Shown here piece by piece: positions 4,981-38,790 of a DNA stretch of 48,047 bases. The notes under the pieces are model-generated. The model saw only the letters and a program-made list of their open reading frames with translations, made no database searches and had not been told where the DNA came from. The translations under genes and the position numbers were made by a program. Source of the DNA: a virus; IMG/VR virus record IMGVR_UViG_3300001589_005307, positions 1 through 48,047 of that record; one strand, given 5' to 3'. Position 1 is the first letter of the stretch; the number at the start of each line of letters is the position of its first letter.

Positions 4981-5646
4981 ATGCATGTGAACAACGATAA
5001 AACATTTACTCATGTACCCACTAAACATACTTTTGAAAATCTAAAGTGTGTTACGACCGAAGGCAGCAGACACTACGTCTGCCCAGATGGAAATAAGTAT
5101 TTTTCCGTCACCACAGTAACAGGACATAAGAAGAAGGCATTCTTTGCCGAGTGGCGAAGAAAGAACCCAGAGGAGTCCAAGCGGGTATGCTCGCGTGGAA
5201 ACAATCTGCACTCTCTTATTGAAGATTATATTAACAACAAGGATCTCAACCCAAAGGGTAACGAGACCATGCTGTTTAGACAATCTTTACCTATGCTCAA
5301 TAAGATTGATAATATTCACGCCCAAGAAGTACCACTTTATAGTAAATTACTTAAACTTGCTGGTCGCGTGGACTGCGTTGCTGAATTTGATGGTGTTCTA
5401 TCGATTATCGATTTCAAGGGTTCAACACGAGAAAAGCGTAGAAGTGATATTGGCAATTACTTTCAGCAAGCAACCGCATATGCAATTATGTGGAAAGAGA
5501 TGACTGGTCAGACTATTGAACAGATTGTCATTCTAATTGCAAGCGAAGATGGAAGCACACAAGAGATCGTGGATAACCCGATCAATCACGTTGCCTCTCT
5601 TCGTCAAACTATTGAAGATTTCCAGAACCTCAAAGTCCAGCGGTAA
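4981..5646 (+). CDS. PD-(D/E)XK exonuclease (phage exonuclease, MGME1/RecB-like fold)
   Basis: 221 residues. The PD-(D/E)XK core is visible: R-G-N-N-L-H-S-L-I-E at 72-81, G-R-V-D at 128-131, I-I-D-F-K at 142-146 (catalytic D144/K146), and the Q-x-x-x-Y helix at 163-167. The N terminus ('HYVCPDGNKYFSVTTV') matches phage exonucleases of this family, which act on DNA ends in recombination or host-DNA breakdown. The ATG at 4981 directly abuts the -10 box and no SD is visible. If the promoter is used, GTG at 4987 would be a leaderless start, losing two residues; alternatively read-through from upstream supplies the ATG. Its end overlaps the convergent cysteine-rich gene by 17 bp. Confidence 0.85.
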   Translation: MHVNNDKTFTHVPTKHTFENLKCVTTEGSRHYVCPDGNKYFSVTTVTGHKKKAFFAEWRRKNPEESKRVCSRGNNLHSLIEDYINNKDLNPKGNETMLFRQSLPMLNKIDNIHAQEVPLYSKLLKLAGRVDCVAEFDGVLSIIDFKGSTREKRRSDIGNYFQQATAYAIMWKEMTGQTIEQIVILIASEDGSTQEIVDNPINHVASLRQTIEDFQNLKVQR

Positions 5647-7729
5647 TCGCTCGTCGTCTTAAAACGGCAGGATTTAACCTTTGTGTTGTGGGTCGTAGAC
5701 CCTGATTCACATTGGTTTTTACTTTTGGTCTATGAGTGCCTTCTCGGTAAAACTTGAGAAGCATTGCTGGTTGCTCTGTAAGTGGTGCTGCCTTGAGACC
5801 GGTGCTTTCATCAAACCACTCTGATGCCTCGATCATAAAGTTCATTACACCGTCATTGTTCTTTGCTGCATCTCTTGCAAGACTTGTTAAATCAAATGCA
5901 ATTTTATCAAGTTGCTGTACATCTTCACCGATTGTGATGGATGACACCGCAGTTAAATTTCGGTCGGTTGCATTTCTTCCAGAATCCGATGTCCAGTCGT
6001 TTCCAGTAGAGTATAAATCACAACTCACTGTGCTGGTGTCAATTGTTTTGTTTGATTTGTAGACAGTTAGTTTAAGTGGTTTCACATATGGAGCAGCACC
6101 AGTAACTGGGATTCTTCCGTAGACATCAGCAATGGTGAGTTCGAGAAAACATGACATGATGGTATCTCTTGGTCCGACCGCAGATCCATTTGCTGATCCG
6201 GGAACAAGACCAACATTCAAATTATGATTAAAGTAGGCAATGGGAACGAGATCTTTTCCTCTATAATTTCCCTTTAGTGATGTAAGTTCACTTCCGGTGA
6301 TCACTAAACTGTTTACGTCTGGACATGGGGGACAGGGTTGACATGTGGTCTCTCCATCTTCACAACAACTGATGACTCCATCACAACCTTTCCCACCACA
6401 GACACCGTTACAGTCTGGGATTTGACAATCATCTGCATCACATTGATCTGGACATTTACCACAATCTGCCGGGTCACAATCTGATCCATCGCCACAACCA
6501 TTGCCACATTCACAATCAATTGGAGGATCTTCACCGCAACCACAACCGGGATCGGGAGTACACTCGTTGCCGGGAGGACATCCACCACCACATGGTTTTT
6601 GTGGATCACATACCACTGGTTCACCATCACATCCACATCCACCGGGTTGAGGGCAGTCACCGTTGGCATCACACCCACAAAGACATAGGTCACATGGATC
6701 GGGGCAATTTGTACAATTTGGTGTGCCACCAAGACATGGGTCGTCGTCGGGTCCGATGAGGGTCACACAGTCGCAACCGGCCGGACATGGAAAATTGTCA
6801 CATGGATTTGGAATCGGACAACAACCGAACGCATTCGAGGACGACGAACAAGTGGATGAACTAGAACATCCGCCACAGTTAGGATCGATAAATCTAAACC
6901 CGCAAAGTTGCGTCCCTTGTCCGCCTTGTTGGTTGCAACAACTTCTACAGTTGTTGGCACTGGTGGACTGTTGGGTGACGACATCATCGACACTTCCATC
7001 ACCCGTGTCATGATCCAACACACCATCATCCATAAAAGGACTATCACTTTGAAATTCTGGACGAATCTCTCCACTTTGTTCAAACTCTGATAAGCGTCTG
7101 GGATCGGTGGTAGGACTTGTATCTTCTAATATTGTTCGTTTAGTATTATCAAAAGAGAAGTCAATACCACCAGAGTTGTCTTTTGTCTGCTGACTAGTAA
7201 TGAAACCACTACTATCACCCATAGACATCGCAGGAGTTAGTCCTATGATTTTCTTCACGTCCTTATAGGTCACGTTTGGCATAGGATCATGAACTTTCAT
7301 TCCTTTTTTATATCTCGCATATGAAAGATTGTGGGAAATATTCATGACGGGGGCGTGATCGCCAGCGGCATCATTGTGTGATTTTCTATTTTCTGATTTA
7401 ATTTGTGTATGGGATGGAACAAGGAGATTGATCGCACCAAGACCAAAAAAATTATCAAAATCCACGCCACCATTAGTCTGGTGAGTATGGGCAGTGCCTC
7501 CTGCTAGAAGGACATCTTCTGCACTCTTTGTATTATCAATGTCACCATAACCTGTACCAATAAGAATATCATCGCAACAGTTATCAGGATCGTTGTTGTC
7601 GCAAGTTGGTCCTTCGTTACAATTACCACTTGGACATGGATTATCGTACACCCAAAAATCTTGCGTCAGTCGAACGAGGTTACCCGCTCCAAGGTGACGA
7701 CCTGCTGTTACGCGATGTCTTGCTGCCAT
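5630..7729 (-). CDS. Cysteine-rich virion-type protein with beta-rich C-terminal domain
   Basis: 699 residues, ATG at 7729 with AGGA upstream, 3 nt after the stop of the preceding reverse gene. Residues 1-260 are polar with a first small Cys cluster (~32-53). Residues 261-469 contain about 45 cysteines in 209 residues, in short C-x(1-6)-C spacings with many G, D, P and N ('CGCDGEPVVC', 'CGNGCGDGSDC'). Such a density implies a disulfide ladder or dense metal binding. The C-terminal ~220 residues look like a beta-sandwich with a W-containing loop and a D-L-T-S-L helix, somewhat like DNRLRE/CBM-type adhesive domains (weak resemblance). No enzyme motif. A surface-exposed fibre or head-decoration role is inferred. 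Its 3' end overlaps the exonuclease gene. Confidence 0.75.
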   Translation of the reverse strand: MAARHRVTAGRHLGAGNLVRLTQDFWVYDNPCPSGNCNEGPTCDNNDPDNCCDDILIGTGYGDIDNTKSAEDVLLAGGTAHTHQTNGGVDFDNFFGLGAINLLVPSHTQIKSENRKSHNDAAGDHAPVMNISHNLSYARYKKGMKVHDPMPNVTYKDVKKIIGLTPAMSMGDSSGFITSQQTKDNSGGIDFSFDNTKRTILEDTSPTTDPRRLSEFEQSGEIRPEFQSDSPFMDDGVLDHDTGDGSVDDVVTQQSTSANNCRSCCNQQGGQGTQLCGFRFIDPNCGGCSSSSTCSSSSNAFGCCPIPNPCDNFPCPAGCDCVTLIGPDDDPCLGGTPNCTNCPDPCDLCLCGCDANGDCPQPGGCGCDGEPVVCDPQKPCGGGCPPGNECTPDPGCGCGEDPPIDCECGNGCGDGSDCDPADCGKCPDQCDADDCQIPDCNGVCGGKGCDGVISCCEDGETTCQPCPPCPDVNSLVITGSELTSLKGNYRGKDLVPIAYFNHNLNVGLVPGSANGSAVGPRDTIMSCFLELTIADVYGRIPVTGAAPYVKPLKLTVYKSNKTIDTSTVSCDLYSTGNDWTSDSGRNATDRNLTAVSSITIGEDVQQLDKIAFDLTSLARDAAKNNDGVMNFMIEASEWFDESTGLKAAPLTEQPAMLLKFYREGTHRPKVKTNVNQGLRPTTQRLNPAVLRRRAITAGL

Positions 7730-7732
7730 AGG

Positions 7733-8569
7733 TTAAGTTCCTAAAATTGACATATTAACGAATGATGTTGCAGCATCAAAGTTCACAGAAGTTGCTAAAA
7801 GTTTATCGACATTTTTGATTTCAAGGAAGACTTCTTCTCCGGGGGATAGGAGATATCCGGTGGATGCACCAGCAGCGAGTGCGCCGGTAGCACCGACACA
7901 CAGAAGACCACCACCCGGACCTGCTTCACCCGGAGTTAATCCCTCAAGACCACTAAAGTAGTTTTTAATTTTCACACCAGAGGAGAGGGTATAACCGGCA
8001 AAGGTAAACAGGGCACTGTCATTGAATGATTTGGTATATGATGTCATTCCTGTCGGGAGAGCAACATTGGCAATGTCCACTGCTCCGGTAACCGAAACAG
8101 CACCGGCGGTTTCAGTGCGAACTGCGACTGCGGTCTGACCTGCCGTTCCTACGACAGAAAGGGTAATTCCTGCGGCAATGGTTCTTATATCAGCAGATAC
8201 ACCATGTTGAATTTGATCGATTGTTCCACCGACGATGGTAATATCATTTACTTCTAGTGTAGCACCAGAAAGACTAACCGGGACTGCCTGAGTACCCAAA
8301 GTGTTACCACGAACGGCAATAAATCCGTTGCTAAGGTATCCTGAATCTCCAATTGATGCGAGGTTCGTGAATATAGGGGAAGTTTTTGACATGAGAGCAT
8401 ATTCGCCCGCTCCACCTGTGCTTAGTTTAACTACTTGAAAGTGAGCAGGACCAACTGCTCCACTTCCATATCCCATATTAGTATCTGCTACAAAGTCGGT
8501 GGCAATTACTGCTCCACCCTCACCCAAATTTAATGTTACATGATCTTCTGCTGTTGCTGCATTTGCCAT
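7733..8569 (-). CDS. Beta-rich virion-type protein
   Basis: 278 residues. I choose ATG at 8569 (MANAATAEDH), six bases after an SD GGAGA at 8576-8580, over a TTG two codons upstream that lacks SD spacing. The sequence is rich in G, A, T, V and S with repeated short beta patterns and no catalytic motif. The C terminus ('SPGEEVFLEI' ... 'VNMSILGT') shares layout with the C termini of the two paralogues at 3499 and 3914. It probably forms an operon with the cysteine-rich gene downstream. The start codon overlaps the -35 box of the divergent gp33 promoter, so the two transcription units share regulatory DNA. Structural role inferred. Confidence 0.7.
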   Translation of the reverse strand: MANAATAEDHVTLNLGEGGAVIATDFVADTNMGYGSGAVGPAHFQVVKLSTGGAGEYALMSKTSPIFTNLASIGDSGYLSNGFIAVRGNTLGTQAVPVSLSGATLEVNDITIVGGTIDQIQHGVSADIRTIAAGITLSVVGTAGQTAVAVRTETAGAVSVTGAVDIANVALPTGMTSYTKSFNDSALFTFAGYTLSSGVKIKNYFSGLEGLTPGEAGPGGGLLCVGATGALAAGASTGYLLSPGEEVFLEIKNVDKLLATSVNFDAATSFVNMSILGT

Positions 8570-8597
8570 TGACAATCTCCATTTAATAGTGTATGCT
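8569..8597 (+). promoter_or_regulatory. Sigma70-like promoter of gp33
   Basis: TTGACA at 8569-8574 (exact), 17-bp spacer, TATGCT at 8592-8597. Expected transcript start is near 8604, giving a ~37-nt leader with SD CGGAG before the ATG at 8641. Confidence 0.7.
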
Positions 8598-8610
8598 ACA
8601 TACTATGTAG
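8596..8610. promoter_or_regulatory. 15-bp palindrome over gp33 -10/start site (possible operator)
   Basis: CTACATA-C-TATGTAG is a perfect 7-bp inverted repeat about a single central base. It overlaps the last bases of the -10 box and the predicted transcript start of the gp33 promoter, and lies upstream of the divergent reverse gene. An operator for a dimeric regulator is inferred from position and symmetry only. Confidence 0.4.
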
Positions 8611-8640
8611 TGAGTTTTTAGTCTTGAACACGGAGAAATA

Positions 8641-8943: not shown

Positions 8944-9843
8944 ATGTCATTTGAATCAATGAAAAAGAACAGTAGTAACTCAGACGCACTTATCAAGAAG
9001 TTGTCTGCAATGGATGATACCAAGAAGAATTCGTACAAGGATGATCGTTTCTGGCGACCGCAAGTTGATGATGCGGGAACTGGTACTGCGACCATTCGCT
9101 TCCTCCCAGAAGCACCGGGTGAAGACACCCCATTTGTACTTTACTATTCTCACGGATTTCAGGGACCGGGAGGTTGGTATATCGAAAACTCCCGTACCAC
9201 TCTCGGGGAGAAAGATCCTGTTTCAGAGATGAACACTCGTCTTTGGAACAGCGGGGAGCAGGCAAAGAAGGATCTCGTTTCCCAACGATACAAGCGAAAG
9301 AAGAGTTATGTCTCTAACATCCTTGTTATCGATGATCCTGCCAATCCCGAAAACAACGGTAAGGTTTTCCTTTACCGTTACGGCACCAAGATCTACCAGA
9401 AGATTCAGGACGCAATGAAACCTGAATTCTCAGACGAAGAGGCAATTGTCCCCTTCGACTTCTGGAAGGGTGCAAACTTTAGACTTCGTATTCGCAAGGT
9501 TGCTGGTTTCCTCAACTATGACAAGTCCGGATTTGATTCCATGTCCGAACTTTTCGACGGTGACGATGATCGCCTGAAGAAGTTGTGGGATGGCGAGTAC
9601 AAGTTGAATGAGTTCGTTGACTCCAGTAACTATAAGTCATATGACGAACTCAAGTCCCGTCTCGAAATGGTCCTCGGTAGTTCCGCCCCTAAGGAAACTG
9701 CTGAAAACACTTCGCTTGAGTCTTCTACTGAGTGGGGAAGTGATGATCCTCCCTCAACACCGGCAACGAACTCTGAGAGTTCTGCACCGACTGAAGAAGA
9801 CGACGCAATGTCTTACTTCGAGAAACTCGCAAGTGAGGATTGA
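8944..9843 (+). CDS. gp32: Single-stranded DNA-binding protein gp32
   Basis: 299 residues (T4: 301). The series of blocks matches T4 gp32: 'RFWRP', 'ATIRFLP', 'GGWYIENSRTTLGEKDP', basic K-R-K-K-S at 117-121 (LAST-type motif), 'NILVIDDPANPENNGKVF', 'PFDFWKGANFRLRI', and an acidic tail ('TEEDDAMSYFEKLASED') that in T4 contacts replication proteins. An N-terminal K-K-N-S-S could serve the cooperative-binding motif. The zinc cysteines of T4 gp32 are replaced (IEN-S instead of IEN-C, no C-x-x-C after), with only the His of 'SHG' kept; as I recall, marine cyanophage gp32 also lacks them. It coats ssDNA in replication and recombination. Codons are strongly AAG/CTC-biased, fitting high expression. 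Confidence 0.95.
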   Translation: MSFESMKKNSSNSDALIKKLSAMDDTKKNSYKDDRFWRPQVDDAGTGTATIRFLPEAPGEDTPFVLYYSHGFQGPGGWYIENSRTTLGEKDPVSEMNTRLWNSGEQAKKDLVSQRYKRKKSYVSNILVIDDPANPENNGKVFLYRYGTKIYQKIQDAMKPEFSDEEAIVPFDFWKGANFRLRIRKVAGFLNYDKSGFDSMSELFDGDDDRLKKLWDGEYKLNEFVDSSNYKSYDELKSRLEMVLGSSAPKETAENTSLESSTEWGSDDPPSTPATNSESSAPTEEDDAMSYFEKLASED

Positions 9844-17325: not shown

Positions 17326-24096
<6,771 letters not shown>

Positions 24097-24099
24097 TAG

Positions 24100-25242
24100 A
24101 TGGCACTGACTAATTTTTTCCTATCACCAGATGGAGCAGGATCGAAAGACGGTTCGGATATCGATAACGCATTCCAAGCGATTACCAGTGGAGATTGGAC
24201 CTCTAGTCTCGATTCACAGACATTGCAAGATCGAAAGTGGATATGGTTAGGGGGAACGTACAACTGTACGACTCAACTTGTTACTTCGGCAACTGCTCCT
24301 ACTGCTGCCGCACCAATGCAATGGGTTGGTGCTGATTCGTCTGGTAATATTCTTCGTCCAAAGTTTGATGAAACTGGTATGAGTCTAGATCTTACCAACT
24401 ACCCAAAATTTATTTGCAGTGAAAATGTAGAAATGATTTTCACCCATGAACATACTTCGTATAAGTGTTTATCTTTTGAAAACACAAGTGCGTCTTTTAG
24501 TAAAAGTGGTATCATAGAAAATACCGCTGGTGATCTTGATGTTCAATTATGGACTGGTTGCTTTTTCAAAGTCGCAACATCAAACAGCACTGGTGTCGAG
24601 GTCTTAACAATGAGTAACTCAAATTTAAGCATGTGTGAAGTTGTGTTGGATTCCGGACCATTTTCTTCCTTGGCACGCTTACTTAGCGGTGGAATGTGTG
24701 AGAATTGTCGCTTCAGGGGACCGGGGACTTCGTCCGATAGTGGAAACGAGGGTGGTATGAGGATAAATAGTGGTAATATTAACATAACAAACACGGTAAT
24801 TTATAATGTTCCGGGATCAGGTATATTCCATGAAAGCACAAACGATAGACAGTCAATTCAAGTTCAGGGTTGCTCTATTATAAACTGTGGTGAAAATGGT
24901 ATCGATACCACCAGTATAGACGGTACAAACATTGCATCAAGAGGAGCGGCGATGGAGTGTTGTATTATTTTTAACTGTGCAAATGGAATCGTTGCCGCTG
25001 CTGAAGATGGCAGGCAACCCGGCGCACAATACGCTGCGATGGGATCTAACACTGCTAACTTTAGCAACATGGATTCATATGAAGACTTCGTTGATGTCGT
25101 TGCAATCACCACTGCTGATTTTGTTGATTATGCCAACAATGATTTCAGAATTAGAAGAGACTCTGTTTTATATAAGATTTTGGGAGGTAAGAATATGGGT
25201 GCGTTACAAAATGAAGATTACGAATTTGTGGGTGTATCATGA
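24100..25242 (+). CDS. Right-handed beta-helix tail spike/fibre-like protein
   Basis: 380 residues. Short repeating strands with N/S/G/C turns ('SGNINITNTVIYNVPGSGIF', 'IQVQGCSIINCGENGI', 'AAMECCIIFNCANGIV') are typical of a pectate-lyase-like parallel beta-helix. The end 'ADFVDYANNDFRIRRDSVLY' plus a 'GGKNMGALQ' tail is the common closing block of such helices. In phage spikes this fold often cuts or binds surface polysaccharide, but I see no certain catalytic residues. It starts three bases after the collagen-like fibre's stop and overlaps the PAAR gene (ATGA), so the three make one tail-tip module. Alternative: a non-enzymatic structural beta-helix. Confidence 0.8.
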   Translation: MALTNFFLSPDGAGSKDGSDIDNAFQAITSGDWTSSLDSQTLQDRKWIWLGGTYNCTTQLVTSATAPTAAAPMQWVGADSSGNILRPKFDETGMSLDLTNYPKFICSENVEMIFTHEHTSYKCLSFENTSASFSKSGIIENTAGDLDVQLWTGCFFKVATSNSTGVEVLTMSNSNLSMCEVVLDSGPFSSLARLLSGGMCENCRFRGPGTSSDSGNEGGMRINSGNINITNTVIYNVPGSGIFHESTNDRQSIQVQGCSIINCGENGIDTTSIDGTNIASRGAAMECCIIFNCANGIVAAAEDGRQPGAQYAAMGSNTANFSNMDSYEDFVDVVAITTADFVDYANNDFRIRRDSVLYKILGGKNMGALQNEDYEFVGVS

Positions 25243-33129: not shown

Positions 33130-36100
33130 ATGGCAAAATCATATAGAAAAGACTTCCACGGCAAAAATCCATATTACGATGATTTTGATCCAAACAAAAA
33201 GTTTGTACGAATCATGTCTCGTCCCGGTTATCCTCTTCAAGCGAGAGAGGTTACTCAATTACAGACTATTCTCCAAAATCAAATTGAAAGAATCGGTGAT
33301 CACTTCTTTGAAGAAGGAGCGTCAGTTCGCGGTGGAGAAATCACAGAGTCGAGTGGTATTGCTCTACGACTAAACAGTACCTCTTTTGATACAGAAACAC
33401 TAAAAACTTTCCGTAACAAAACAATCAAAAACGTAACAACTGGTGTTGAGGCAAGAGTTATTTCTTACTCTGATGTAAGTCCTGACCTGACAGACGACAA
33501 TAGTCAAATTCTTTTTGTTAATATGTCAACATCTGGTTCATTTTCTGCTGGAGACAAGTTGGTGATTTTAGGGACTCTCCCTGAAGTTTCGGTTGAACTT
33601 GTCCCCTCAACGAACACCGCCCCGGCGGTCAGTGTTGCTACCAATATTATCGGCATCGGATCTGGTATATACTATGCTGATGGTTTCTTCATAGAAACAA
33701 ACAGCGAGACAATTGGTATCGCTGGTGTCACCGCGACATATAGAACTTTTGAAAACCCCTCAGCATCTGTTGGTTTTCAAATTAAAAGAGATCTTATCAG
33801 TTCTGAGGAAGATGATAGTCTCAAAGACCCCTCCTTTGGTTTTTATAACTTCAACTCACCGGGAGCAGATCGATATAAAGTAAGTCTTGAACTAAGCACG
33901 AAAGAAATCTCAGGTGAAGGTTCTACTTTTGAAAGTGAAGATTATTTTGAAATCATGCGAGTTATCAATGGCGAAACAACAAAACAAATTCGCTATACCG
34001 ACTATGCAGTATTTGAAGATACTCTTGCAAGAAGAACATTCGACGAGTCAGGAAACTATACGGTAAGACCTTTCCAACTTACCACAGCAACACACATAGA
34101 AGCATTTGGTGTGTCCAGTAACGGAACCAAGCACGCAATTAAACTTGGAGCAGGCAAAGCATATGTTGGTGGATATGAATTTGAAACGATTGCACCAAGA
34201 TATATCGCAGTTGATCGAGGACTTGATAAAAACATTGTCACTCAACAAATCCTCTCAACTCCACTGACCAATTATGTAAATGTTCTCAGAGACTCATCTT
34301 TTGATTGTCTTGTTTCTGGTGATAACCAAACAAGAGAAACATTCACAAAGAACAAAAAAGGTATCGTTCAAAAAGTCAATGATCTTGGTGGGTTACAAAT
34401 TACAACCAATATCGGAACCTGTAATATCAGGACAATTGAAGAGGACACGGCAGGAAACATAAAACTCTATCTCTTCAATATTAACATGACTGATGGGAAG
34501 TTTTCAGACTCAACACACATCGCCATAGATGATGGTAGCACAGATGATAACACACAGAGATATAGAATTGGCATTGAAGATACTGAAACTGCATTAGAAG
34601 ATATTGGTTCTTCGAGACAAATATTCAAAGCACCAATTGGTTCTGGTTTAATCAGAGCATCGGGTTCTGGTGGGTTAAACTCCTCGTTCCTAGTCAAGAA
34701 GGCATACCCCTTTGATATGAGTTCTGGTAGTGTAACGATTACCTCAACCAAACCATTCCTCCCACCAACAAGATCATCATATTCAATTTTCTATAGTACA
34801 AACTCATCCGGTGACGGTGCAACTCTAATGAACATCGGTACTGATATGGAATTATCAGTTTCAAACAACCAAGCAAACCCAGTTCTTACCATAACAAAGG
34901 GTTCAAATATTCCCGATAGCGGTAAAGGAACAGTTATTGCTTCACAACAATGGCAGTCCGATGCAAGTTCTGACGTAGAAAATAATATCAGAACAAAAAC
35001 ACTGGCGGATGGGGCGAGAAGTGGTGTTACCGGCGATCCCAAAACTGGAATTGTAAAACTCGCACACGCAGATGTTTACTCCATGACCACGATCAACGAT
35101 GGTCAACGTGATGTTACTAATAGTTTTGATCTAGAAGTAAACTCCGGAATTGATGCATACCGAAGAAGTAGAATTGTACTTAAAGCAGGTGCAACTTGTG
35201 CGGTGGATGCCGATGGTAATCTAAATATTAACTCCGCCACATATAGATATTTTTCACACTCTGGAGACGGACCATTTACGGTGGACTCTTATCCACTAGA
35301 GCAAATAAAATATGATGATATTCCAACATTCACCGATACTGAAACAGGAGAAACCTATAGTCTAGCAGATGCCTTTGACTTTAGACCTGTTACAACAGAT
35401 GAAGAAGATACGTCGTTTGATAACGGATCTGGTGGTTCACAGGTAGTTGCTTTCAATAACGGAATTATTCTTTCTACCGTCTCATATGAACATTATCTTA
35501 GTAGAGTGGACAGCGTTGTTCTAGATAGACAAACTAGAGAATTTAAAATTATACAGGGTGTGTCTGCTGTTTCACCCAAAGCACCTGAAGTAGATCCCCT
35601 CAATATGAACATTGGTGATCTCAATGTTCCACCATATACTAGGTTCTCATCGGACATAAAATATCGATATATTGATAATCAAAGAACAACAATGAGTGAA
35701 ATTAATGAGTTAGAATCCACCACACAATTCGACTCATATTTCACCTTCAAAAACGATCTAGAACAAGAAGCACTAAACCGTGCCCAAAACTTCCGATCAT
35801 CAAGAACAGCATTTTCAGATGGTATCTTTGTTGACACGTTCCTTGGACACAATAATTCTATAACGTCAAAAAGAGATCACAACTGTTCAATAGACACAGA
35901 ACAGGGAGAACTTCGCCCAGCATTTGAATCAACATTTATCCGAATGGGAATTACTGGTGCTAGTCTCGGTGCCAATGTAGAACGAACCAGTGATAATATT
36001 TACCTCCCCATCAGTTCACAGGTGCGATATACATCCAACCCATTAGCAAACGATGTGATTAGTGCAAACCAATTCTCTGTCGCAGACTATCTTGGAACAG

Positions 36101-38790
36101 TGACATTATCACCAAGTAGTGATAACTTTTTTGCTCAATCACTCAAACCAACAGTAATTGTAAATACTGTTGGTGAGGCGGATAACTGGGAGACATTTAT
36201 CAATGCGTACCAGAGAGGTAGATCAAGTGGTTTTGGTTCTCAATGGAAAGATTGGGAAAGTCTTTGGTTCGGTTCTCGTAAAAGAAACGATATTAATATC
36301 GAACACGAATCATCCGGGAACGAATACACAAATCCCAGAAGATCATCATATGTCTCTAGAGTTCTTTCTGATAAACTGATTAAAAAGATCGGTAATAAAA
36401 TTGTAGATTTAAGTGTCGTTCCATTCGCAAACAATAGAACTGTTGAATGTTTTATCGACAACCTGAAACCTTTAGCAACCCACTATGTCTACTTCGATGG
36501 TCAATTTAAAAGAACTCTTGTAACAGACGTAGCAGGATCTGCTACTGGTATAACCTTTAGTATTCCATCAAGAACACACCTCACTGGTAAAAAATTAGTC
36601 AGAATTAGTGATGTGAACGATGGTTCAGTTGCCCTTGCAACATCAAGTGCAGATGCAATATATTATGCTGAAGGATTATTAGAAACGAAAGAAGGAGACT
36701 CTTACTCTGTACGACCAGCGATTACTAGAAGAAAAGCAAGCAACGTGGATGATGTCTCTAGTGATTACTATGAAGCAAACTCCGCAGACAACCTATCAAG
36801 AAGTTTCAATTCACAAACACCATTCGCACAAGAAATTTTTGTGGATCCAACAAACTATCCAAATGGAATCACTCTAAAGGATGTTGAATTATTCTTTTCA
36901 TCGCTTCCCTCTGGATCATTGGATACAAGAGATCCTGTCAAGGTTCATGTGCGACCCATGTATAATGGTTCTCCACATCCATTTAAAGTTCTTCCTTTCT
37001 CTGAGGTAACTGAAACAAATATCATCAGAAATAGAGCAGAAGATACACAAGGGAGCGGAACAACCTTTACCTTCTCTACTCCTGTTTATCTCAAACCAAA
37101 CACAAGTTATGCGATATGCGTCAGTACAAACGCGGACTATAAACTATGGTACGGTGAAGTAAACGAACAAGCGGTAAATGGGGAAGCAGGATTATTTAGT
37201 GCAACACCTCAAACCATTAAACGTCCACAACTCATGGGTCCGATGCATATTCCTCTCAATAATGGTACTTCTACATCATACGATACAAGATACCTTAAAA
37301 TGACTGTCAACAGGTGTGGATTTCTGGATCTTTCGACTGATGTTTCAATAAACGCATTTTCAGAATTTACTTCCAATATTCTTAATGTTATTCCCTATCA
37401 TGCTGCCTTTATTCACAGCAACGAGCAAATATCTGATGAGGTAAAACCAGTATTCCAACTCGATAGTTTCAACTTCAATGGTGGAAACGAAACTAGACCT
37501 AAAGTTGACATCAACACAACCATTGATGATTTCGCAACCAAGAAAACTATTAGTTCCTCTCAACCTGTAAAAATTACAACTCGTTTCTTAACGGATGCAA
37601 AATCAGCAGTTGCTAGTATGGTTGATGGTGACAGATTAGGATTTCTTGCTGTAGAGTACATGGCAAACAATGATGATGCTGCTGCCATTACAGAAGAGTT
37701 GCAACCAACAGCAAGACTCGCAACGAACCGATCACGTTATGTTGGTAGAAAAGTAACTTTAACTAGAGCAGCAGATGATATTGTTGTGATAATCGATGGA
37801 TCCTTCGTAGGTAATTCGCAAATTAAAGTTTATGTTAAACTACAAGGACCAGATCAACCAAATGGTATCTTTGATGATAATAACTATGAAGAATTATTCC
37901 CAGAGGGACAAGAGGGATCAGAGGGTGTTTCTGCCAAGTTTGCAGAATTGAAACCACAGGGAAGTGTCGGTGGTGTCATGCGATTTACCACAAACAATCT
38001 TTCTCCCGGAACCTCCACGGAATTTAATGCTTACCAAATCAAGATCCTTCTAATGGGAGAAAATGTCAACAACGAAGGAAATGCTTCAGAGATTCCTGTG
38101 ATCAATACAGTATCTGCTGTTCCCCTTCGTAGAGTTTCACAAGATGAGATTCGTAGATACACACCACCGGGATCCGTTCTTGCTTGGTCCGGTGGAGGAG
38201 TCGCTCCATTCGGATTTGTCTACTGTAACGGAACCGCTTATAACGCTGTGGCAAATCCAGAGTATAAAGTATTGTTTGAAGCAATCAGAACTCGATATAA
38301 CCTTGCCACAGATCCTGTCAACAGTGATGGATCATTCTTCCGAGTCCCAGATCTCAGAGGCAGAACCATTATTGGTACGGGAACACCCAACCCCGCTCAG
38401 GGTTCTGATCTTCTCCGAACACTTGCAGAAAAGGGCGGCGAAGACGAAACCAACCTAACGCGAGATCAGTTACCCCCGCACACACATAACATTGGTGCGA
38501 GAGATCTATCAGACCCGACGGTCATTAACAACAGCGGAGGATATAATGCTATAGCACAGAATGATGTCAGCAATATTGCTGACACCATTCCAATGTGTTC
38601 GGGTGGTTCCGGACTGTTCCCAACGGATGACGATGCCCACGGTAAGGGTGGATTTGCAAGTGTCGCCTATACGCGACCACTCGCAGGTCCGGAACCAGAT
38701 ATCTTTGGTTTAATGTCAGATTCTATGGCAGGAAACAAGCACAACAACATGCCACCGTTCCTCGTACTCGACTATATAATTAAGATCTAA
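33130..38790 (+). CDS. Giant baseplate/short-fibre protein (DUF4815-type N terminus, tail-collar C terminus)
   Basis: 1886 residues. N terminus 'GKNPYYDDFDPNKKFVRIMS', then 'QAREVTQLQTILQNQIERIG' and 'FFEEGASV', is the pattern of the DUF4815-type proteins of marine T4-like phages. Long beta-rich middle. C-terminal phage tail-collar domain (~1679-1886): 'GSVLAWSGGG-x-P-x-GFVYCNG', 'FRVPDLRGRTIIG' (1737-1749), 'LPPHTHN' (1781-1787) and the end 'NMPPFLVLDYIIK'. H1784-x-H1786 equals the H-x-H zinc motif of the T4 short tail fibre gp12. Thus one chain seems to join a wedge-attached base (gp10 place) to a gp12-like receptor-contact tip. Confidence 0.85.
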   Translation: MAKSYRKDFHGKNPYYDDFDPNKKFVRIMSRPGYPLQAREVTQLQTILQNQIERIGDHFFEEGASVRGGEITESSGIALRLNSTSFDTETLKTFRNKTIKNVTTGVEARVISYSDVSPDLTDDNSQILFVNMSTSGSFSAGDKLVILGTLPEVSVELVPSTNTAPAVSVATNIIGIGSGIYYADGFFIETNSETIGIAGVTATYRTFENPSASVGFQIKRDLISSEEDDSLKDPSFGFYNFNSPGADRYKVSLELSTKEISGEGSTFESEDYFEIMRVINGETTKQIRYTDYAVFEDTLARRTFDESGNYTVRPFQLTTATHIEAFGVSSNGTKHAIKLGAGKAYVGGYEFETIAPRYIAVDRGLDKNIVTQQILSTPLTNYVNVLRDSSFDCLVSGDNQTRETFTKNKKGIVQKVNDLGGLQITTNIGTCNIRTIEEDTAGNIKLYLFNINMTDGKFSDSTHIAIDDGSTDDNTQRYRIGIEDTETALEDIGSSRQIFKAPIGSGLIRASGSGGLNSSFLVKKAYPFDMSSGSVTITSTKPFLPPTRSSYSIFYSTNSSGDGATLMNIGTDMELSVSNNQANPVLTITKGSNIPDSGKGTVIASQQWQSDASSDVENNIRTKTLADGARSGVTGDPKTGIVKLAHADVYSMTTINDGQRDVTNSFDLEVNSGIDAYRRSRIVLKAGATCAVDADGNLNINSATYRYFSHSGDGPFTVDSYPLEQIKYDDIPTFTDTETGETYSLADAFDFRPVTTDEEDTSFDNGSGGSQVVAFNNGIILSTVSYEHYLSRVDSVVLDRQTREFKIIQGVSAVSPKAPEVDPLNMNIGDLNVPPYTRFSSDIKYRYIDNQRTTMSEINELESTTQFDSYFTFKNDLEQEALNRAQNFRSSRTAFSDGIFVDTFLGHNNSITSKRDHNCSIDTEQGELRPAFESTFIRMGITGASLGANVERTSDNIYLPISSQVRYTSNPLANDVISANQFSVADYLGTVTLSPSSDNFFAQSLKPTVIVNTVGEADNWETFINAYQRGRSSGFGSQWKDWESLWFGSRKRNDINIEHESSGNEYTNPRRSSYVSRVLSDKLIKKIGNKIVDLSVVPFANNRTVECFIDNLKPLATHYVYFDGQFKRTLVTDVAGSATGITFSIPSRTHLTGKKLVRISDVNDGSVALATSSADAIYYAEGLLETKEGDSYSVRPAITRRKASNVDDVSSDYYEANSADNLSRSFNSQTPFAQEIFVDPTNYPNGITLKDVELFFSSLPSGSLDTRDPVKVHVRPMYNGSPHPFKVLPFSEVTETNIIRNRAEDTQGSGTTFTFSTPVYLKPNTSYAICVSTNADYKLWYGEVNEQAVNGEAGLFSATPQTIKRPQLMGPMHIPLNNGTSTSYDTRYLKMTVNRCGFLDLSTDVSINAFSEFTSNILNVIPYHAAFIHSNEQISDEVKPVFQLDSFNFNGGNETRPKVDINTTIDDFATKKTISSSQPVKITTRFLTDAKSAVASMVDGDRLGFLAVEYMANNDDAAAITEELQPTARLATNRSRYVGRKVTLTRAADDIVVIIDGSFVGNSQIKVYVKLQGPDQPNGIFDDNNYEELFPEGQEGSEGVSAKFAELKPQGSVGGVMRFTTNNLSPGTSTEFNAYQIKILLMGENVNNEGNASEIPVINTVSAVPLRRVSQDEIRRYTPPGSVLAWSGGGVAPFGFVYCNGTAYNAVANPEYKVLFEAIRTRYNLATDPVNSDGSFFRVPDLRGRTIIGTGTPNPAQGSDLLRTLAEKGGEDETNLTRDQLPPHTHNIGARDLSDPTVINNSGGYNAIAQNDVSNIADTIPMCSGGSGLFPTDDDAHGKGGFASVAYTRPLAGPEPDIFGLMSDSMAGNKHNNMPPFLVLDYIIKI

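Follow-up and report, generated by a model that had tools for sequence, protein, structure and literature searches.

Phages that assemble in the cytoplasm would not be expected to depend on dozens of disulfides, and this locus raises the question of what a block of 45 cysteines does in a protein of a T4-like myovirus. We analyzed a window of 48,047 nucleotides, the whole stretch of viral DNA under study (IMG/VR record IMGVR_UViG_3300001589_005307). An earlier note made from the sequence had pointed to a 209-residue block with about 45 Cys in a reverse-strand protein, and this count proved exact (45 Cys at residues 261-469, window 6323-6949). The features needed here are:

4981..5646, plus strand: PD-(D/E)XK nuclease, convergent, with a 17-base overlap with the 3' end of the Cys-block gene
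5630..7729 including the stop codon, minus strand: Cys-block protein, 699 aa, ATG start, called from the open reading frame and its orthologues
5633..6322, minus strand: C-terminal domain, residues 470-699, DNRLRE/CBM-type jelly roll by prediction
6323..6949, minus strand: Cys-rich block, residues 261-469, 45 Cys
6950..7099, minus strand: variable linker, residues 211-260, defined by comparison with relatives
7100..7729, minus strand: N-terminal region, residues 1-210, conserved, five Cys
7733..8569, minus strand: 278-aa neighbor protein (MANAATAED...), ATG at 8569, start picked by GGAG spacing
8944..9843, plus strand: gp32-type ssDNA-binding protein, conserved neighbor

Cys made up 21.5% of the block (45/209), together with 35 Gly, 28 Pro and 32 Asp plus Glu residues. 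The block had a net charge of -27 and contained no His, Tyr, Trp or Met, and its Cys codons were 39 TGT and 6 TGC. Over the 31 other genes of the window, Cys accounted for 71 of 14,025 residues (0.5%; binomial log10 P for the block about -57). The protein holds 52 Cys in all; those outside the block, which the earlier note leaves out, lie at N-terminal positions 32, 37, 43, 51 and 52 and at C-terminal positions 527 and 570. The second most Cys-rich gene of the window (24100-25242, plus strand) encodes a 380-aa protein with a beta-helix look and 12 Cys (3.2%), for which no Pfam or PHROG match was found.

We searched IMG/VR with profiles and protein sequences and found orthologues at the matching locus in seven other viral contigs. 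L001, L006, L008 and L013/L014 were full-length, L007 was cut at the 3' end, and L003 and L004 held the N-terminal part only. L014 was identical to L013 across the gene, and the two were counted as one distinct sequence. Every relative long enough to show it, four distinct full-length sequences and one 3'-truncated sequence, carried a Cys block with 37-87 Cys. The six readable blocks, including that of the window, contained 45/209, 47/236, 53/233, 59/284, 87/351 and 37/164 Cys per residues. The five N-terminal Cys recurred in 6/6 sequences with a readable block, and Cys 37, 43 and 52 sit in columns invariant over eight sequences. The C-terminal pair also recurred, with one member absent in L013 and the end of L007 missing.

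These orthologues settled whether the block is a gene product. The frame was unbroken in six distinct sequences, recovered from independent metagenomes and bordered on either side by conserved flanks, and the other five frames across the block stretch held 0-5 Cys and 1-21 stops each. In the flanks, dN was about 0.3 versus a dS of 1.1-1.6; in the alignable block end, dN was 0.38 versus a dS of 1.25 (44 codons, a short stretch with dS near saturation). These values, with dN below dS, indicate translation of the frame and purifying selection on it. The window block had no internal DNA repeats; the L007 block had short degenerate ones. Nothing counted in favor of a frameshift, a mis-called frame or an assembly error, and the unbroken orthologous frames, the flanks and the dN values contradict it. 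We regard this artefact as ruled out, with negligible residual probability, as the earlier note had expected from the clean frame.

The plus-strand gene at 18232-24096 encodes a tail-fibre protein of 1954 aa in which collagen repeats form 12 stretches (Pfam Collagen, E 6.5e-72), and its antisense frames reached as many as 29 Cys per 100 residues. Cys density alone is thus no proof of a gene, which the orthologues supply for the block, and antisense collagen-repeat frames are a trap for composition scans.

We also searched outside IMG/VR. A tblastn search of 50,697 phage records found no relative, whether the query was the whole protein, the N-terminal part, the C-terminal domain or the Cys blocks (protein parts at E up to 10; the BLAST low-complexity filter may hide blocks). 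Profile searches of AG-345-L05, HTVC008M, Mosig, P-SSM5 and S-T4 likewise returned no relative. No open reading frame in four complete T4-like genomes and 25 kb of P-SSM5 exceeded 12 Cys per 100 residues. Plasmids yielded no relative, the N-terminal profile had no match in contigs of 84,980 bacterial genomes, and the Cys-block protein had none among solved structures searched by sequence. A Pfam scan of the eight family members gave no EGF, granulin or other Cys-rich extracellular module at E up to 1. The suggestion that such blocks are rare in phage was therefore upheld for the isolates searched and for four complete T4-like marine genomes. The open-access papers searched yielded no Cys-rich block of similar kind in a phage virion protein; this silence is a weak argument for novelty. 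The Cys block is a real, undescribed and variable element inside a probable phage adhesin.

We used the gene content of the window to assess whether the protein belongs to a virion. The 48 kb record is a fragment of a T4-like myovirus. It encodes a gp32 ssDNA-binding protein (PHROG 224 and Pfam gp32 matches) together with baseplate wedge, hub, tail tube cap, tail sheath stabilizer, head closure and terminase proteins, and the conserved neighbor gp32 identifies the virus as T4-like. This gp32 shared no more than 54% identity with its counterpart in any phage of the collection searched, and its nearest neighbors were marine Kyanoviridae (P-SSM2, P-SSM5, AG-345-L05 and Pelagibacter phages). Among other genes of the window, a 1886-aa protein (33130-38790, plus strand) has an N-terminal DUF4815 and, toward its C-terminus, a phage tail collar domain. 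In Pelagibacter phage HTVC008M, genes annotated as curli CsgF, CsgG and CsgB lie near gp32 (L022, 7562-9557), another unusual surface-protein set in a genomic neighborhood similar to that of the Cys-block gene.

The Cys-block gene lay at a tail/baseplate location, sharing strand and neighborhood with hub/tape-measure-like tail genes. The 278-aa gene ends 3 bases upstream of it and adjoins it in every relative contig reaching far enough downstream; its product was 68-79% identical among relatives, in which it sits beside gp32. A PD-(D/E)XK nuclease-like gene followed on the opposite strand in L001 and L013 also. We considered that the protein might be non-structural, either set free at lysis or active within the host, given that it has no homologue of known function, that the nuclease is convergent and that gp32 is close by. 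However, the tail-gene strand and neighborhood, the adhesin-like predicted C-terminal fold and the two-gene unit formed with a conserved 278-aa protein of structural look argue against this, and its high Cys content makes a cytoplasmic effector improbable. We judge a non-structural role very unlikely. The setting, with its tail and baseplate genes and the CBM-like predicted C-terminal fold, fits the structural-type protein proposed at first reading.

The T4 late-promoter core TATAAATA occurred 0 times on both strands of the window versus 1.9 expected, and ATAAATA was rarer than expected (5 versus 10), a pattern with which the virus may use a late motif other than that of T4. A near-palindrome, CTACATAGTATGTAGCATAC, lies at window 8590-8630, just upstream of the 278-aa gene (minus strand), and is possibly an operator or promoter element. 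On the contig of L001 (L068, 1039-1788), a 250-aa open reading frame carries 17 Cys in zinc-finger-like CxxC motifs (KTCPKCNKEFTTRFKKQKYCSCKCS) and is perhaps an HNH-type or mobile-element protein.

To compare block with flanks, we used local alignments in which Cys was down-weighted, scored against shuffled sequence. The flanks were conserved (N-terminal 210 residues, 45-68% identity; last 230 residues, 44-65%), whereas block length ranged from 164 to 351 residues and block sequence varied too. The linker of L013/L014 is about 180 residues long and Ser/Thr-rich (orthologue residues about 215-395). The window block aligned with that of L013 at 10 standard deviations above shuffles (49% identity), although L013 is the most distant relative in the N-terminal flank (48%) and its flanks are about 50% identical to those of the window. 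The L006 block also aligned (9.4 standard deviations); those of L008 and L007 did not (0.2). The L001 block scored 1.4 standard deviations above shuffles, although L001 shares 67% and 65% identity with the window in the flanks. Block kinship does not follow flank kinship. Neither this variability nor the position of the block between two conserved domains figured in the earlier note. The simplest reading that these alignments suggest is that block segments were exchanged between viruses; faster block evolution in some lineages may be an alternative. At the DNA level, the window and L013 blocks were 59% identical, so no recent block transfer is visible there. A variable block between conserved ends is a new site at which diversification of phage surface proteins might be sought, besides the well-known fibre tips.

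We then asked what the arrangement of the cysteines says about their chemistry. Cys spacing was more even than chance in five of six members (P of 0.0005 or less, 2000 placements), with L008 the exception (P = 0.19). In the window block the gap variance was 6.1 versus 16.9 for random placement, and gaps of 3-5 residues were over-represented in the blocks. CxC and CxxC motifs together numbered 13 in the window block versus 13.1 expected; they did not exceed chance in four members (the window, L001, L006 and L007) and were slightly above it in L008 and L013. CC occurred 3 times in the window block versus 9.1 expected and was depleted in most members. His was absent from the blocks except for one in L006, net charge ran from -22 to -49 and hydrophobic content was very low. 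Counting the five N-terminal Cys with the block, the Cys number was even in 6/6 sequences (50, 52, 58, 64, 92 and 42), as expected if those Cys pair; the two-sided chance of this is about 0.03, for six related sequences.

The earlier note had left the choice between a disulfide ladder and a metal-binding architecture. The spacing, the parity and the scarcity of His were disulfide-like, whereas the CxC/CxxC/CC clusters of a metallothionein were not seen. Even spacing, no CxC/CxxC enrichment, almost no His and even Cys counts thus moderately favor, at the level of pattern, small disulfide modules over metal binding of the metallothionein type. Along the lines of the Ferrojan/Trojan Horse idea, the block could instead bind Zn, Cu or Fe, as a metallothionein-like or multi-site element of a tail protein whose sites form in the reducing cytoplasm and are carried out on the virion. 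Its very high Cys content, the 13 CxC/CxxC motifs in the window block and a stable fold possible in a reducing cytoplasm without oxidation would suit this, as do the metal sites of phage tails (lambda gpL homologues, PMC10721106; HxH fibres, PMC11705849). Yet CxC plus CxxC stood at chance in four members, gaps were of 3-5 residues and evenly spaced, there was at most one His, no metal-site motif was conserved across relatives, and those precedents rely on a small number of strictly conserved ligands. We consider metal binding unlikely, and less likely than a disulfide stalk.

A further explanation is a mostly disordered, low-complexity spacer with thiols that cross-link it to other virion proteins, to a second copy or to surfaces, in which case the number of Cys would matter and their pattern would not. 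The free length and sequence (164-351 residues), the variable adjacent linker, the very low hydrophobic content and the low model confidence are compatible with such a spacer. The even Cys spacing and the match of Cys columns between the window and L013 (72% versus 42% in shuffles) imply partial structural constraint instead, and we find a spacer decidedly unlikely.

Structure prediction, which had been proposed as a check, gave a usable model for one part of the protein. The C-terminal domain was modelled as a beta sandwich (residues 470-699; pTM 0.65, mean pLDDT 62) with a jelly-roll fold, and it ends in a basic tail, RLNPAVLRRRAITAGL. The block yielded no confident model (pLDDT about 25-50), and the full-length AlphaFold model gave nothing usable for the block or the N-terminal region, for which we found no known family. 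The best solved match to the C-terminal model was the chondroitin-sulfate CBM 8wab (Z 12.1, 154 residues, 4.6 A rmsd), and the alginate CBM 7vbo also matched (Z 10.1, 144 residues, 3.6 A). TGF-beta/BMP prodomains matched about as well (Z 10-12), so the comparison establishes the fold class and not family membership. BFVD viral-model matches included phage proteins named CBM96. The NCBIfam model NF033679 DNRLRE_dom matched residues 552-637 at 16.7 bits, under its curated cut-off of 34, and matched 2/8 members at E up to 1. On the model, we describe the domain as DNRLRE/CBM-like in its working and do not file it as a member. The jelly roll is probably a ligand-binding domain, for a host glycan or other surface ligand.

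Taken together, these data are best accounted for by a virion-surface adhesin with a stalk stiffened by disulfides after lysis. This reading, close to one raised in the earlier note, has in our judgement a probability of about one half. The protein would be a late virion-surface component of a marine-type T4-like myovirus. Its conserved N-terminal region would serve as anchor, followed by the variable linker, and small disulfide-bonded modules in the Cys block would make up a rod or stalk. Inspection of the N-terminus, MAARHRVTAGRH, showed no hydrophobic stretch resembling a signal, which points to synthesis in the cytoplasm. There the chain would be in reduced form, and the modules would oxidize once lysis has occurred. 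Phage thiol enzymes (Erv1/Alr, glutaredoxin or thioredoxin) were not found over the cut-off in five incomplete contigs, so this oxidation must be spontaneous or host-driven. The oxidized stalk would be compact and protease-resistant, and would reach toward the glycan or surface that the jelly roll probably binds. Such modules need only cysteines and turns, which leaves the remaining sequence free to change or be exchanged. Retention of 37-87 block Cys while nearly all else in the block changes would point to oxidative maturation after lysis, or else to a heavy burden of thiols or metal on a virus shed in large numbers into water. We more tentatively propose an adhesin family in which a hypervariable, exchangeable disulfide cassette (37-87 Cys) forms the stalk; synthesized in reduced form and oxidized outside the host, it would make the fibre rigid only in oxygenated water.

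We compared the protein with known systems. The DNRLRE/CBM96 modules (8wab, 7vbo and a protein of Brevibacillus phage SecTim467) resemble residues 470-699 in the predicted jelly-roll fold, in its terminal position on a putative phage adhesin and in a weak sequence match; the difference is that the C-terminal domain scores under the curated cut-off. Eukaryotic extracellular modules (EGF, granulin and keratin-associated) have evenly spaced Cys with Gly, Pro, Asp and Asn turns. The block is like them in spacing and turns, but no Pfam model matched the block region at E 1. Homologues of lambda gpL, a tail protein, carry a Cys-coordinated [4Fe-4S] cluster (PMC10721106, citing Tam et al. 2013). They share with the Cys-block protein working cysteines in a phage tail protein, but gpL has four strictly conserved Cys where the Cys-block relatives have 37-87 and vary. 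T4 gp37 and the fibre of Alteromonas phage R22Y carry HxH iron sites (PMC11705849). The likeness lies in a putative tail-fibre region with a possible capacity for binding metals in seawater; their sites are His-based, whereas the Cys block has at most one His per relative. Phage-tail precedents for functional Cys/His metal sites thus exist, and they differ in kind from the Cys block.
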